DNA of 14,055 nucleotides, taken from positions 1-14,055 of the forward strand of contig JACNFQ010000043.1 in NCBI GenBank assembly GCA_014384545.1, in the 5' to 3' direction. This document shows, piece after piece, positions 408 through 6,332 of this stretch; position 1 is the stretch's first letter, and the number at the start of each line of letters is the position of its first letter. Position numbers and translations under genes: made by a program. Origin of the DNA: a bacterium. GTDB taxonomy: Bacteria; UBP7; UBA6624. The notes beneath the pieces were generated by a model, which saw nothing but the letters and a program-made list of their open reading frames with translations, was not told the DNA's origin and searched no databases.

Positions 408-977
408 TTAGTCTTCTTTTTCGCTACAGGCACAATCCCGCCTGCCACTACCAAAGAGACGCCCACAAATGGCACAAATTGGGCAATATCCCCCCGCACC
501 TACATAGATGGAATGGGCAAGCAAAAGGAGTAATAGCTGGTATTCAAAACCGCCATTCATCATCGAAAAACCACCTCTTAGGTGTACCATCCCAAGTGCA
601 CCGGCCATCACAACCACCAAGAACAAAGCCCCCCATTTCCGGAATCGTGCTGGTCCAATGACCATAAGGAAGCCGCCTACGACTTCTGCCAACCCCACCA
701 ACAGCCAGAGATTCTTGTTCACACTCATGGGGTTTTCACCCATCGCCATCACCTTGGGAAAGCCGTGATATAGGAAAATAAGTGCCAACATCACGCGTGC
801 AGCGACTTCGGTCTTACAAAGGGGTCCCTTATCTTGGGGGTCGGCACCTGCCCGGGTATAGATAAGGGCAGCCCCAGAAAACAACCCCAATGCCACAAAG
901 AGCAAATCACTATTCCCTTCCATCAGGAACCAAAGCGATCCCAAAAACAGCACCAACCAAACGAGCGATTTCTTCAT
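408..977 (-). CDS. DoxX-like integral membrane protein with Cys-rich tail
   Basis: This 189-residue protein has about six hydrophobic segments (roughly residues 4-20, 26-42, 58-78, 90-108, 115-132 and 145-162). The DoxX-type core runs from about residue 55 and includes FLYHGFPKVM, LVGLAEVVGGFLMV and GGFEYQLLLLLLAHSI. DoxX proteins are small membrane proteins linked to respiratory or oxidative-stress functions; the precise reaction is not known for most members. After the last segment there is an unusual Cys cluster, CPICAIC near residue 165 and CAC near 182, which could bind metal or be redox active. The start is fixed by a strong AAGGAGG site. The gene begins 10 bp after the Crp/Fnr-type gene, so the two are almost certainly co-transcribed. 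The family assignment is fairly sure, the function inferred. Confidence 0.8.
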   Translation of the reverse strand: MKKSLVWLVLFLGSLWFLMEGNSDLLFVALGLFSGAALIYTRAGADPQDKGPLCKTEVAARVMLALIFLYHGFPKVMAMGENPMSVNKNLWLLVGLAEVVGGFLMVIGPARFRKWGALFLVVVMAGALGMVHLRGGFSMMNGGFEYQLLLLLLAHSIYVGAGGYCPICAICGRLFGSGRRDCACSEKED

Positions 978-987
978 CTTTTCCTCC

Positions 988-1653
988 TTATTGTGGTGAG
1001 AGAACCTCTCCTTTCCAGATTAACTCTCTCCTTCCCGTTACTACCATTCCCTCTCCCCTGAGTTGAGACAGGGCTCGACTTGTTGCCTCTCGACTTGCTC
1101 CAACCAAACGTGAGATATCTTGGTGTGTCAGGGGAACAACCCATCCCTCCTCTCCCACCCAACCAATCCGAGGAGCTAGGCGTCCTAACAAGATAGGCAA
1201 TCTCTCAGCAACCGATTTGAAGAGAAGATCCTCTAACCTTGACTCTACACGGGCAAGCCGTCGACCGGTCCACTTGTAGAACCTAGCTAGGACGACGGGA
1301 TGGCGAGAACAGAAATTTCGGAACCGTGCTTCGGGAATCGCACAGATGTGGACAGGCCCCAATGCCGTAACCCTCCAGTCTTTTCCTTCTTCTTGCCCCT
1401 CCAACTGACCAAGAATCTCTCCAGGTCCCAAGATATCAAGGAGATGGGGCTTTCCTTCCTCTCTCAACCGTTCAAAGCGAAGACGCCCCATCTTTATGAA
1501 GACGACCCTCTCTGATAAAGTCGCCGATGCAAGGCTTTCCCCATCACGCAATGTGCTTTCGTCAACAGCTTGTGCCAACGCCATTAAATCTCTCTTTGCC
1601 ACTCCTTTCAAGGAGGACATCATAGAGAGGTGCCAGATGCGGTCGGGAACCAT
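988..1653 (-). CDS. Crp/Fnr-family transcriptional regulator
   Basis: The 221-residue protein has an N-terminal cyclic-nucleotide-binding-type beta domain (about residues 12-120), a long dimerisation helix (about 118-150) and a C-terminal winged helix-turn-helix (about 172-215). The DNA-reading segment THQDISRLVGASREATSRAL closely matches E. coli CRP, keeping the RE...R residues (R188, E189, R193) that read TGTGA half-sites. The effector pocket lacks the Arg-Ser pair of the cAMP-binding cassette, so cAMP is unlikely to be the ligand. There is no N-terminal Cys cluster like that of FNR; only C104 and C115 are present. It lies 18 bp after the pentaheme cytochrome gene and 10 bp before the DoxX-like gene. 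A matching operator occurs at 4002-4017 before the first gene of the group, suggesting autoregulation. Confidence 0.92.
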   Translation of the reverse strand: MVPDRIWHLSMMSSLKGVAKRDLMALAQAVDESTLRDGESLASATLSERVVFIKMGRLRFERLREEGKPHLLDILGPGEILGQLEGQEEGKDWRVTALGPVHICAIPEARFRNFCSRHPVVLARFYKWTGRRLARVESRLEDLLFKSVAERLPILLGRLAPRIGWVGEEGWVVPLTHQDISRLVGASREATSRALSQLRGEGMVVTGRRELIWKGEVLSPQ

Positions 1654-1671: not shown

Positions 1672-2829
1672 CTAGAATAGATAGACCTCTTCCCATGCAG
1701 TAAAGACGGCATCTGAAGCGTCTTTATGTGCTACCTTCAAGAGAGCCTCTACCCCACGACCCTGCTCCAAGAGAATGGTGAACATATCCCGGTAAAATCG
1801 GTCGGGGTCTACTACCAAGCGGACGCGGATACCTGCAGTCTCCCCTTGCCGAGGCATTCTGTAGTTCACCACCCGTTCTTCTCCAGCGGGAATGCGTGTA
1901 TCTGCTTTTTCGGTCTTTAGGTTCATCGTGATTTCTCTGCTAAACCACGCCTCCGAACATGTACCCTCCAAGACCATGCCGGATCCATCCACTTGGCAAG
2001 CCTCCAAAATGACTCTAGGGGTTACATAGGTGGGGAAATGGTGTCCAGTCCCACTGTTCTTGACCTGAATCATCGCATGAACAGTGCCTGTAGATTCAAC
2101 CAAGTCCACCTTGACCTCTACTGCACCCTGAACCATTTCGGGGTCGTGAATCCCACGCCACAGATGGCGACGGTCGGGCATATGACAAGATTGGCAGGAT
2201 TCGCCCGCAATCCCTTGCGGACTCTCTTTCCATTCTTCGTAGGTGTTCTCTAGGAACTTCCCATTCAATGTCCATTGCCCCGGTTTAAACTGATGGCACG
2301 CCGCACAAAACGCGCTCTCTTGGAATGCATCTTGGGGTGTAAACCCTCCATGAGCGGTGCCCTCGGGTAAGTTCCCTTCTATAGCGGGGGGGCCAAAGAG
2401 AATTCCATTTCGCATATGACAACCCGCACATGTCAGGCCTGCCTTATGGGACACGGTCGAATCCAAACCCCCTAACGACAGTGCTTGCTCGGCCAACGGT
2501 GCATGACAGTTCAAACAGCCCTGCTTTGCGGCATCGCTCGGGTTTGTATACTGCCCCAACAACCCCGGCCCCATACCTATGGCGTGGCGACTTTGCGCCC
2601 AGTCAATCATCTGAGAAGTGTGGCACGAACCACACGCCCCCGGTCCCAAGTTTCGCTCTAAATCAGACCATTCTGCAGGGAGCTCTCCTTGAAGAGAGAG
2701 GGGTCGCTTCCAATGAGTTTCTAGAAAACCTATTGTCTGTCGAGAAGGTGATGTCGCAGAACGGTTGGGGTTGTCCTGCGGGACACATCCCGACAGGACC
2801 AGAGCAAGAAATAGGAAGCCTCGGAACAT
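1672..2829 (-). CDS. Pentaheme c-type cytochrome lipoprotein
   Basis: The 385-residue product starts with a lipoprotein signal (LVLSGC, lipidated Cys predicted at residue 15). It carries five CXXCH heme-attachment motifs: CGSCH at 66, CLNCH at 105, CAGCH at 134, CAACH at 175 and CQSCH at 212. Extra histidines (RHAIGMG, GTAHGGF, RRHLWRGIHD) could be distal heme ligands. The arrangement resembles cytochrome c554/c3-type multiheme domains. The last 160 residues are heme-free and beta-rich, beginning near VEVKVDLVESTGTVHAMIQV and including GTGHHFPTYVTPR, a pattern I associate with this multiheme family. Lipid anchoring places it at a membrane facing the periplasm or cell exterior, as an electron carrier or oxidoreductase. 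It starts 32 bp after the NPC cytochrome and is followed by the Crp/Fnr gene. The substrate is unknown. Confidence 0.9.
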   Translation of the reverse strand: MFRGFLFLALVLSGCVPQDNPNRSATSPSRQTIGFLETHWKRPLSLQGELPAEWSDLERNLGPGACGSCHTSQMIDWAQSRHAIGMGPGLLGQYTNPSDAAKQGCLNCHAPLAEQALSLGGLDSTVSHKAGLTCAGCHMRNGILFGPPAIEGNLPEGTAHGGFTPQDAFQESAFCAACHQFKPGQWTLNGKFLENTYEEWKESPQGIAGESCQSCHMPDRRHLWRGIHDPEMVQGAVEVKVDLVESTGTVHAMIQVKNSGTGHHFPTYVTPRVILEACQVDGSGMVLEGTCSEAWFSREITMNLKTEKADTRIPAGEERVVNYRMPRQGETAGIRVRLVVDPDRFYRDMFTILLEQGRGVEALLKVAHKDASDAVFTAWEEVYLF

Positions 2830-2861: not shown

Positions 2862-3941
2862 TTACTTGTTCCGACGGCGCAAGAAAAACCCCAAGGCACC
2901 CAACCCTAAGACACCGAGCCCCGCCATTGCAACGCCCTTGTTCATCCCACCACAGGGATTACAAGGGTTTTTAGGTGCACACGGGTTGCAAGGGTTCTTG
3001 GGTGCACACGGGTTACAGGGATTCTTGGGTGCACAAGGATTGCAGGGGTTGCAAGGGTTTGTAGGTGCACACGGGTTACAGGGATTCTTGGGTGCACAAG
3101 GATTGCAGGGGTTGCAAGGGTTTGTAGGTGCACACGGGTTACAGGGATTCTTGGGTGCACAAGGATTGCAGGGGTTGCAAGGGTTTTTGGGTGCACACGG
3201 GTTCATCCCACCACAGGGATTACAAGGGTTCATCCCTCCTCCGTGTCTGTCTGGTGGCATTTCGGCTCCTGAAATCGAGTAGGTGTAATACGCATTCAAT
3301 GCCGTCAATCGTTCGTCGTCCCAAGCGAAGGGCTTTGTCGCCATTGGGGTCACCATACAGAAATTTATCATTTGATCCAAAGAAACAACCCTGTCGGGCA
3401 TCGTCACAAAATGAGGAAAACTCTCCGCAGGGGTCATACTTAGCCCCCCTTGATGGCATGTTTGACATGAAGTACCATTCGAAGAAAGCTCGTTATCATT
3501 CCAAAGAGCATCACCCGCCTCAATGAGAGCAACTAAGTTCTTACCACCTTTGGCCATTCCACCACCACAAGGATTACATGGGTTCATCCCACCACAAGGA
3601 TTACATGGGTTCATCCCACCACAAGGATTACATGGGTTCTTGGAATGGCAGGGGTTTTGAACTGAAATATGAACACCTCTACAAGGGTTTTTGGGTGCAC
3701 ACGGGTTGCAGGGGTTACAGGGATTCTTGGGTGCACACGGGTTGCAAGGGTTTTGGCTTGAGCCACCCTTCGCCCCTTCAGCTTCTGATATCCCACCTGA
3801 AGGCACCATTTCGCCCTCTATCGTTGCCTTGCTTCCCCCGTCAGCGACGACAGCAGCAACCAATGAAGGTCCACCTGTGATGTTCTGGAGTAGTAAGAGC
3901 GTCAAGAACGCCTTTGCCATCTTCCTTTGCTTATTCTTCAT
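2862..3941 (-). CDS. Monoheme c-type cytochrome with two NPC-repeat arrays and a C-terminal membrane/sorting tail
   Basis: This 359-residue protein has, in order: a signal peptide (1-30); a first Cys-rich array (64-125, 13 Asn-Pro-Cys motifs spaced by APK, HSK or GGM); a class I-like heme domain (about 135-225, CQTCH at 159-163, [16 protein letters not shown] and [10 protein letters not shown]); a second array (238-330, 22 Asn-Pro-Cys motifs); and a tail of GG, a hydrophobic stretch and FFLRRRNK. That tail resembles the GlyGly-CTERM/MYXO-CTERM type of sorting signal. The heme domain is close to that of the 5379-6332 cytochrome and loosely recalls SoxA/TsdA-type cytochromes. ATG-3941 is chosen because AAGGAG lies 6 nt upstream and a signal peptide follows; the open frame upstream to 4457 crosses the divergent gene and is spurious. 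It heads the redox operon. Function of the arrays is unknown: metal binding, disulfide cross-linking or surface attachment are possible. Confidence 0.85.
2992..3180 (-). repeat. Three tandem 63-bp units inside the NPC cytochrome gene
   Basis: Three consecutive 63-bp units (2992-3054, 3055-3117, 3118-3180) each encode 21 residues with five NPC motifs. The last two are identical base for base and the first differs at a few positions near its left end. Further partial copies flank them on both sides. Identity at the DNA level, including silent positions, suggests recent unequal crossing-over or slippage. Confidence 0.9.
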
Positions 3942-4001: not shown

Positions 4002-4017
4002 TGTGACCCATGTCACC
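4002..4017. promoter_or_regulatory. CRP-type operator TGTGA-N6-TCACC
   Basis: The sequence TGTGACCCATGTCACC matches the CRP consensus TGTGA-N6-TCACA at nine of ten positions. It sits in the 109-bp gap between two divergent genes. Its centre lies 41.5 bp from the minus-strand start predicted from the TACGAT box, the classic class II activation position. The neighbouring Crp/Fnr-type regulator has the residues that read TGTGA. It may also act on the divergent DUF3179 gene. Confidence 0.6.
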
Positions 4018-4050
4018 CAACCCATTCCTTCCAGAGACAAGAATCCCCCC

Positions 4051-5382
4051 ATGAATAAGAACGATCCCATCAGGAGAACCATCTCTTTACTTCTGCTCGT
4101 TGTGGGTGGCGTTGGAGCGACTTGGCTCGTTGCCCGATGGATCACTCGCCCCACACCACCACCAGATCTGCCCATCGGTTCAGGGCTTTCTATCGCCCCT
4201 GTACCGATCACTGGTAGAGAAGAACGAGGTTCGTTGACTTCCATGGATACCGAGCCTCCCGGTTTGCTCCCTGGCGAAGAACAGTTGGGAGAGGCTGGCT
4301 GGCCCCGAATAGGAGCACAGTTCCTTGTGGGGCAGGGCGAGCAGTGGCCATTCTCTGCTTTCCCCAACGGGCGGTTTGAATATCGCTCCATCAAAGCTGG
4401 CTCCTTCCTCGGTGGTGGTCCTGGGCGAGACGGTATCCCCTCCATTGACGACCCCACCTACGAAGATATTCCGACCGCGACTCCTAGATATTCAGACCGC
4501 GATCCCGTCGCTGTCCTAACGATAGGAAACGAAACAAGAATTTACCCTCAACAGATCTTGATGTGGCACGAAATTGCCAACGACACCCTCGGAGGAATCC
4601 CCGTTGCTGTGACGTACTGCCCCCTATGTAATGCGACCGTCGCTTTCAAGAGAACACTAGATGGGGTGGTACTGGAATTTGGTGTTTCTGGATACTTACG
4701 AAACAGCGACCTAATCATGTACGACCGTCTCACCGAAAGTTGGTTCCAACAACTGACAGGGGAAGGGATTACAGGAATCTTGACCTCGGCTCGTCTTGAT
4801 CGTCTTCCCGTTCAAGTGATGTCGTACAAGTCCGCAGTCTCTGCCTACCCTGATGCAACCGTTCTTGCCCCCGAAGAGGAACTTGCTAAGTTCTACGGGA
4901 AGAACCCTTATCGGCAATACGACAGTAAAGAGACCGAACCCTTTCTCCTGAATACTCCAGCAGGAGAAAGTTATGGAGATGCCCTTCCCCCCAAAGCCCG
5001 GATCTTGGTGGTGGAAGAGCCCGGTTTTGAGACGTTGCCCGTCATAGCATTGACCTCTATCAAGAAGAAGGGGCTGATTGTTCATGGGCAAAGCCTAGTC
5101 GTTTATGTGGGGAGCCACGCTTCACCTTTGGACAATACGGTGATTTCTGAAGGGAGAGATGTGATTCAAGCTACGGTTTTTACGCTTCCTGCCGAAGGAA
5201 AATATAAGAAGAAAGGGAGCGAGATATGGGGACCACACGGTGCCCGTTGGGATATCTTCACAGGAAAGCCCCTTACCGAAGGCACACCAGCACTACGCCC
5301 CGCACGCCATGGTCTCTATTTCTGGTTTGCGTGGTCGGCATTCCACCCCGAAGCGACCGTCTTAAAAACGGGCTGGTTCTAG
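4051..5382 (+). CDS. DUF3179 domain-containing membrane-anchored protein
   Basis: The 443-residue product has an N-terminal signal anchor (about residues 9-30) followed by a Pro-rich linker. The DUF3179 domain extends from about residue 110 to the end. Family landmarks are [55 protein letters not shown] (CxxC-type pair C190/C193), a second half with [13 protein letters not shown], and [17 protein letters not shown]. The biochemical role of DUF3179 is not known to me; the conserved YCPLC suggests a redox or metal site on the outer face of the membrane. ATG-4051 is preferred over GTG-4003 because the signal anchor follows directly and GTG-4003 lies in the operator. No strong Shine-Dalgarno is visible. 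It is divergent from the NPC cytochrome and convergent with the second cytochrome, so functional association with both is plausible. Confidence 0.88.
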
Positions 5383-6332
5383 TCCTTCGTTTCGTAGTGC
5401 AAGGTAATGGTAAACGCCCCATTTACCTCTCCATTTGCACCCGCCACACCGATCAAGACGTTGTAGGAATTGCGAATAGCGACGAGGGCAGGCGTCTCTT
5501 CGGATTGTCCGGGATTGCTGTCGGTTTTGTAGTCATACCCCGCCTCGCAAGAGACCGCCCGAAAGATACTTGGAGGGATGTCGTGGCTCTCTATCCCAAT
5601 CTGGTAGGCATAGACGCTTACATCAACGCCTGCTTCTGGTTGTACGGCAACGGTCAAAGTGGAATGTGCTTCTTGAGGAACTTCAAGAGAGTAGAAAACG
5701 TGACTGCCCGAGAAATTCTCGTTCTCAGTTCCTGGCCAGCACGCTATGGAACTGTTGTCTGCCCAATCCAAATCAATCCTTGCCCCGTGGGAGAGGTTTC
5801 CTGAAAGGGTGGCACCATCCTTGGCGGGTAGAAGTGTCACTTGATCTGTCCAACCAGCGTGAGAACCGGGCATCCCTCCACAAGGATTGGCACTCTCTTC
5901 TTCACCAGGCATTGCTCGTTGCTCTAGGGCATATGTATAGTAAGCATTAAGGGCAGTAAGGCGGCTATCAGCCCAGCCCAACGGCTCGGCAGACATCGGT
6001 ATGGTCATACAGATATTGATCATCTGGTCTAGGGTCACGATCCGATTATGCATCTCCACATTATGGGGGAACGGAACCGTGGTGTTTAAGTTGGCACCAT
6101 GGGCATGACAGCTATTACAAGCCAGACCATTCGTTGAGAGGGAGCTATCTTTCCACAACGTCTCTCCCTGTTCAATAAGAGAGTCCATCTCTTCCCTTTC
6201 TTCGGAGTAGGAGGAACAAGGGTTCATCCCACCACTTTGAAGGGGTAACCCGCTCCCTTCCCAAACGAAAAAGAGACCAGCCACAACAAGAAACCCTACC
6301 CCTAAACTAAATCTCATTCCCTTCTTTCTCAT
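5379..6332 (-). CDS. Monoheme c-type cytochrome with C-terminal beta-sandwich domain, paralogue of the NPC cytochrome
   Basis: This 317-residue protein has an N-terminal signal or anchor (about 6-25), then a heme domain (about 50-140) with CNSCH at 72-76, RIVTLDQMINICMTIPM and [12 protein letters not shown]. These match the NPC cytochrome heme domain almost segment by segment. Single NPC motifs remain at residues 37-39 and 149-151, exactly where the paralogue carries its two large arrays. Residues about 170-317 form a heme-free domain with alternating beta strands (HVFYSLEVP, VDVSVYAYQIG, NVLIGVAGA, FTITLHYE) resembling pre-peptidase C-terminal (PPC) domains. ATG-6332 is chosen because it has AAGGGGG upstream and is followed by a basic signal sequence. 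The 5' leader is only 12 nt from the tRNA-Ser CCA end. Its stop shares CTAG with the DUF3179 gene. Confidence 0.87.
   Translation of the reverse strand: MRKKGMRFSLGVGFLVVAGLFFVWEGSGLPLQSGGMNPCSSYSEEREEMDSLIEQGETLWKDSSLSTNGLACNSCHAHGANLNTTVPFPHNVEMHNRIVTLDQMINICMTIPMSAEPLGWADSRLTALNAYYTYALEQRAMPGEEESANPCGGMPGSHAGWTDQVTLLPAKDGATLSGNLSHGARIDLDWADNSSIACWPGTENENFSGSHVFYSLEVPQEAHSTLTVAVQPEAGVDVSVYAYQIGIESHDIPPSIFRAVSCEAGYDYKTDSNPGQSEETPALVAIRNSYNVLIGVAGANGEVNGAFTITLHYETKD

Follow-up and report, generated by a model that had tools for sequence, protein, structure and literature searches.

An exported cytochrome with flanking Asn-Pro-Cys arrays and its likely pentaheme partner

What might an exported cytochrome do with 35 copies of the tripeptide Asn-Pro-Cys (NPC), arranged in two arrays around a single heme domain? 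The question is raised by a gene on a bacterial contig (JACNFQ010000043.1) that was analyzed over 14,055 nucleotides, here called the window. The gene lies on the minus strand; its ATG is at 3941 and its stop codon ends at 2862. An original prediction, made from the window alone, proposed that the Cys-rich arms of this electron carrier could bind metals, form a disulfide-cross-linked mesh or attach the heme domain to the envelope, and knew of no described function. In agreement with the last statement, we found no description in the open-access literature of either an NPC-array cytochrome or a system of NPC arrays and a pentaheme cytochrome. The gene is laid out as follows.

2862..3941, minus strand: NPC-array cytochrome gene, 359 residues (signal peptide, array 1, heme domain, array 2, C-terminal transmembrane helix)
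3567..3752, minus strand: array 1, 13 NPC motifs (residues 64-125)
3246..3548, minus strand: heme domain as modelled (residues 132-232), SoxA-TsdA cytochrome c domain PF21342
2952..3230, minus strand: array 2, 22 NPC motifs (residues 238-330), partly a 63-bp tandem duplication
2865..2951, minus strand: C-terminal GGMNKG, hydrophobic helix and RRRNK, a probable membrane anchor and the sole one among 81 members

The counts given in the original prediction are confirmed: the protein has 359 residues, 35 NPC motifs (13 before the heme motif and 22 after it), 38 cysteines and a single CXXCH (C159QTCH163), and its N-terminus is a signal-like helix. The arrays hold 35 of the cysteines, whereas the other three lie at the heme, C159 and C162 as thioethers and C195 as a predicted axial ligand. 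Within the arrays the motifs are spaced as CNPC, which is a CXXC, and as CAPKNPC, which is a CX5C. Seven synonymous spellings are used for the NPC units, and by inspection a Cys follows every Asn-Pro in the window gene (35/35); in 50 non-redundant relatives, 522 NPC motifs stand against 33 cases in which Asn-Pro is followed by another residue. The varied synonymous spelling, together with the lack of any Asn-Pro without Cys in the window gene, indicates purifying selection, and the arrays are thus not a product of chance. Array 2 has partly grown by tandem duplication, as it contains 3.5 copies of a 63-bp unit with 96% matches (2983-3203). Taken with the seven spellings and the kept cysteines, this duplication means that the arrays are real, maintained and changing in length. 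The original prediction was right that the cytochrome is exported and that its Cys arms are maintained; random or frameshifted arrays, which would have spoken against it, were not seen among relatives.

The heme domain between the arrays belongs to a known family. Pfam PF21342 matches residues ~140-228 with 47 bits against a curated cut-off of 27 (E=2.7e-12). An AlphaFold model built from 51 homologous domains (pLDDT 89.8) predicts a SoxA/TsdA fold; its best solved relatives are TsdA and SoxA, with a Foldseek probability of 1.00, yet an E value of only ~1e-3, and the best nine structural matches have VIA-align Z scores of 9.7-11.2. The heme motif is formed by C159, C162 and H163, and M181, M191, M196 and P199 are invariant in the family alignment. 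C195 is invariant as well (51/51) and aligns with Cys123 of TsdA and with the Cys of the SoxA N-terminal domain, from which we infer His/Cys ligation with C195 as the axial heme ligand. Because of this alignment with the SoxA/TsdA axial Cys, we count three heme-site cysteines, one more than the two that the original prediction had allowed.

Membership of this family brings to mind a Sox/TsdA-like enzyme acting on thiosulfate or sulfane sulfur, in which the NPC cysteines would be built-in SoxY-like carriers. The presence of the SoxA/TsdA domain and the Sulf_transp genes close to some members agree with such an enzyme; however, Sulf_transp genes are not enriched near family members. TsdA binds thiosulfate through Arg109, Arg119 and Ser127 (PMC4423706). 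In its PDB sequence these residues lie at C-14, C-4 and C+4 from the Cys ligand, and their equivalents in the window protein are M181, M191 and P199. All 51 of the 51 aligned sequences have Met/Met/Pro here, the first spacing (the C-14 position) being lengthened by an insertion in one subfamily of the alignment, and this replacement makes thiosulfate chemistry unlikely. The best solved match of the family profile is the N-terminal domain of diheme SoxA, whereas the SoxA C-terminal domain aligns only weakly; the catalytic heme of SoxA is the C-terminal one. In addition, SoxY was not found in nine of the 14 genomes that encode NPC-cytochromes, including the window genome (79% complete). With the active-site residues missing and SoxY mostly missing, we rejected the Sox/TsdA enzyme as very improbable. 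Judging from the alignment, the SoxA-type heme domain has apparently left thiosulfate chemistry.

The architecture is not peculiar to the window. We scanned one genome per species (84,980 species) with a single pattern, which gave 255 relatives, and the best 80 were read. Among these 80, the NPC-cytochrome architecture occurs in at least seven bacterial phyla, labelled as in the record titles: relatives come from Pseudomonadota (beta, gamma and alpha), Myxococcota (by record label), Tectimicrobiota including Entotheonella, Rokuibacteriota, Methylomirabilota, Nitrospinota, Nitrospirota, Gemmatimonadota and SAR324. The genome-wide search for NPC arrays joined to CXXCH domains, which the original prediction had proposed, thus finds the architecture both widespread and maintained. 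A viral origin was rejected, as no relative was found among viral contigs, and the sole plasmid match was one distant heme-domain match.

The arms themselves vary considerably. Of the best 80 of the 255 relatives, nearly all have an NPC array on at least one side of the heme domain; the arms contain 0-44 Cys each, and Cys spacings of 6, 3 and 5 dominate. One relative (L119) has CGPC repeats, a thioredoxin-type motif. In four Marinobacter members (L107, L109, L115 and L117) the arms are of an acidic GEAEG type and lack Cys, so not every member depends on thiols. A separate small EAEG-repeat protein is encoded upstream in L109, L115 and L117, and some Marinobacter loci lie near ECF sigma, zf-HC2 and DoxX-like genes, which recalls the EGKCG captophorin clusters, though without Cys. 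In L123 (SAR324), all 43 NPC motifs are N-terminal to the heme domain, in long uninterrupted runs. The parity of the Cys number is random (43 even, 37 odd); full disulfide pairing is therefore not enforced, and pairing by means of an even Cys number was rejected.

A C-terminal hydrophobic helix is found in only one of the 81 members, the window protein, while seven have a lipobox pattern instead. The original prediction had taken the tail of GG, hydrophobic helix and RRR for a C-terminal sorting signal. The tail is real, but a sorting role does not follow: besides its occurrence in a single member, no other protein of the window genome (79% complete) has a similar tail, and the best rhombosortase match in that genome scores 48 bits, where the cut-off is 84. 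The proposed co-occurrence with a sorting protease thus failed to appear, and the rhombosortase model also gives matches in all 14 control genomes. We therefore rejected a rhombosortase (GlyGly-CTERM) substrate, for which neither an enzyme above the cut-off nor a repeated tail was found in the genome. It is simpler to read this tail sequence as a single stop-transfer anchor in the membrane.

Apart from the cytochromes, NPC arrays are found in exported peptides that stand alone, in a protein resembling a lipoprotein, in a divergent SoxA-like protein and in further exported proteins. Altogether, at least four kinds of exported protein bear NPC arms, several of them in one genome (L003, L139, L142, L143, L156 and L189). 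One of them, L003 (G000:C64:13480-13740), is encoded in the window genome; it resembles a lipoprotein and has 12 NPC motifs, but neither a heme motif nor a Pfam match. The plus-strand ORF of L142, which starts from 709, encodes a small exported protein without a Pfam match whose central domain lies between two NPC arrays, and a SoxA-like C-terminal fragment with NPC repeats is found near it. Since the arrays occur on several kinds of exported protein, the NPC array is a portable module. Such a module could be a cross-linkable tag that joins heme, YceI-like, lipoprotein and stand-alone proteins into a disulfide or metal-thiolate mesh in the envelope. The several kinds of NPC-bearing protein per genome, the predicted lipoproteins among the members and the transmembrane anchor of the window protein are in keeping with a tag, but the random Cys parity and the Cys-free arms are not, and a tag alone leaves the link to a pentaheme cytochrome unexplained. 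We consider it unlikely.

This link is seen in the gene order of the window, which on the minus strand runs from the NPC-cytochrome through the pentaheme cytochrome, a Crp/Fnr regulator and DoxX to a protein of metallo-beta-lactamase fold. The neighbors that concern us are listed below.

1672..2829, minus strand: pentaheme c-type cytochrome, the conserved and likely partner, 32 bp downstream of the NPC-cytochrome on the same strand
988..1653, minus strand: Crp/Fnr-type regulator (Pfam), next gene of the probable operon
408..977, minus strand: DoxX-family membrane protein (Pfam PF07681)
4003..5382, plus strand: DUF3179 protein, divergent from the NPC-cytochrome, containing CPLC (UxxC in selenoprotein relatives)
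5379..6332, minus strand: paralogous SoxA/TsdA-domain cytochrome with one NPC per side and a heme domain ~50% identical

The pentaheme gene directly downstream, like the SoxA/TsdA identity and the third heme-site Cys, had been missed by the original prediction. Its homologues lie within two genes of an NPC-cytochrome in 23 cases versus two at a distance of at least five genes (p=2.5e-8), and 16 near versus two far in the non-redundant set of 50 loci (p=1e-5). In most linked loci the gene is at +1 on the same strand, and all 25 of 25 homologues have exactly five CXXCH motifs. Motiliproteus sp. MSK22-1 (L102) is a cultured host of a linked pair. We also sampled 386 genomes across the domain, counting as NPC-cytochrome genomes those with strong matches whose proteins carry NPC arrays; the pentaheme was present in 13 of these 14 genomes versus 10 of the 372 others (p=3e-17, genomes treated as independent). 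Seen from the other side, 13 of the 24 pentaheme loci have an ORF with an NPC array (at least two NPC) directly beside the pentaheme gene and on its strand; in seven of those 13 the adjoining protein has no heme motif, one of the seven having a YceI-like domain by inspection. It is thus the array, more than the heme domain, that recurs beside the pentaheme. The minus-strand ORF at 2839-3591 of L189 encodes an exported, YceI-like protein whose C-terminus carries an NPCNPC tail, and it directly adjoins a pentaheme gene. The pentaheme is likely the partner of the NPC-cytochrome, and the recurrence of NPC-array proteins beside this one cytochrome suggests that they probably form an undescribed envelope pair for redox or metal handling.

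Other neighbors are less constant. DUF3179 adjoins the gene here, but it is not enriched near relatives (three near, four far; not significant) and was rejected as a partner; it is present in 8/14 NPC-cytochrome genomes versus 5/14 others searched. The paralogue convergent with it differs in its C-terminal region, for which any Ig-like match is weak at best, and has the look of a copy that either lost its arrays or never acquired them. The second recurrent neighbor is DUF6969 (22 near versus five far, p=6e-6), a same-strand neighbor in 30 of the best 80 of 255 loci (for example L069:4346-5152), in betaproteobacterial and gammaproteobacterial members. It has a conserved HAHR...EHGHFH motif and is His-rich and presumably cytoplasmic (by inspection); DUF6969 and the pentaheme rarely share a locus, both being present in two. 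Some members, chiefly in Gallionellaceae, have thioredoxin and CcdA/DsbD genes nearby, and the enrichment of ECF sigma factor, thioredoxin, FGE-sulfatase and CcdA vanishes in the non-redundant set.

Two readings of the arrays concern metals. In the first, the protein would be a substrate of an MNIO (DUF692) enzyme, that is, a modified metallophore of the captophorin or bufferin kind fused to a cytochrome. Its Cys-rich repeats and the nearby DoxX would suit this, as would the MNIO genes in two of the best 80 of 255 loci, but MNIO is encoded in only one of the 14 NPC-cytochrome genomes and not in the window genome. Moreover, Pro precedes Cys in every NPC, and a tested MNIO, FonBC, was intolerant of Pro in its repeat (PMC13097082). 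As MNIO is mostly missing from genomes and loci, we rejected such a modified peptide as highly improbable. In the second reading, the arms are a metallothionein-like periplasmic buffer, chiefly for Cu(I) (or Fe/Zn), whose metal is changed or sensed in its redox state by the cytochromes. CXXC and CX5C spacing throughout the arms, four invariant or near-invariant Met close to the heme Cys, and the acidic Marinobacter arms, which could bind metal too, are consistent with a buffer. So are the DoxX of the window and the DoxX-like, ECF sigma factor and zf-HC2 genes near Marinobacter members; a clustering of Cu-binding Cys-rich peptides with DoxX is known (PMC13097082). Nevertheless, the neighbors include no prominent family of Cu exporters, chaperones or metal regulators, Cox11/CtaG being seen once, and a passive buffer would not call for a pentaheme partner. 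We give metal buffering about one chance in three.

The reading to which we tentatively lean, with a probability hardly higher than that of metal buffering, is an exported, membrane-tethered Cys-array redox module wired to respiration through both cytochromes. The NPC thiols would be its working part, cycling between thiol and disulfide. The SoxA-type domain would oxidize thiols in its own arrays and in those of other NPC proteins, or might only relay their electrons, which would reach the respiratory chain by way of the pentaheme cytochrome, and the outcome would be an envelope redox buffer or a disulfide-linked network. This redox module is suggested by the SoxA/TsdA fold and the alignment of C195 with the Cys ligand, at which S-S bonds form in the SoxA/TsdA family, a reaction compared by its authors with de novo disulfide formation by DsbB (PMC4423706). 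It is also suggested by the pentaheme, tied by gene order and co-occurrence and found beside heme-less NPC proteins too, by the conservation of Cys after Asn-Pro while array length varies, by the CGPC repeats of L119, and by thioredoxin and CcdA/DsbD near some members. The Cys-free GEAEG arms of four Marinobacter members, the random Cys parity and the loss of thioredoxin/CcdA enrichment in the non-redundant set count against it, and metal-thiolate binding would explain the arrays equally well. Thiol redox and metal buffering are therefore nearly even: the descent of the heme domain from S-S-forming proteins and the electron-carrier partner argue for the former, whereas CXXC spacing, the acidic Marinobacter arms and DoxX in some loci argue for the latter. 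A broader formulation, possible but doubtful, is an undescribed multi-phylum respiratory module in which electrons would be stored reversibly on the thiols or metal-thiolates of exported NPC arrays, with a dedicated pentaheme cytochrome to charge and discharge them and, optionally, a fused SoxA-type heme domain. If true, a large uncharacterized Cys-repeat family would be linked to one dedicated multiheme cytochrome in hosts such as Gallionella, Sideroxydans, Marinobacter, Accumulibacter, Entotheonella, Rokubacteria, SAR324 and groundwater lineages, and would offer a testable answer as to how extracytoplasmic thiols or soft metals are handled with respiratory electrons.

Comparison with known systems places both cytochromes. 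The window domain shares with SoxA and TsdA (PF21342) the fold, the position of CXXCH, the Cys axial ligand (predicted here) and the C-terminal helix. Nevertheless, there are clear differences: the window protein has a single heme domain with NPC arrays on both flanks, SoxY is mostly missing from the genome, and the thiosulfate-binding Arg/Arg/Ser of SoxA/TsdA is an invariant Met/Met/Pro in NPC-cytochromes. With captophorins and bufferins the family has in common exported Cys-rich repeats and, in some loci, DoxX and stress-regulator genes, but it differs in the lack of MNIO, the Pro in each repeat, the fused heme domain and the pentaheme partner. The model of this partner (pLDDT 90.6) matches the penta-heme cytochrome c552 of Thermochromatium tepidum (PDB 5ze8; Z 23.1 over 302 residues), which likewise has five CXXCH motifs and a C-terminal beta domain. 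By profile, the partner is also a relative of the MccSep/ExtKL multiheme (seleno)proteins (PDB 9wt8), with an E value of ~1e-18 to MccSep, although it scores 33 bits against the ExtKL/MccSep NCBIfam equivalog (NF040886), well under the cut-off of 250, and in the alignments read it has neither Cys nor Sec at the MccSep Sec site. Unlike 5ze8 and MccSep/ExtKL, the partner is coupled to NPC-array proteins.
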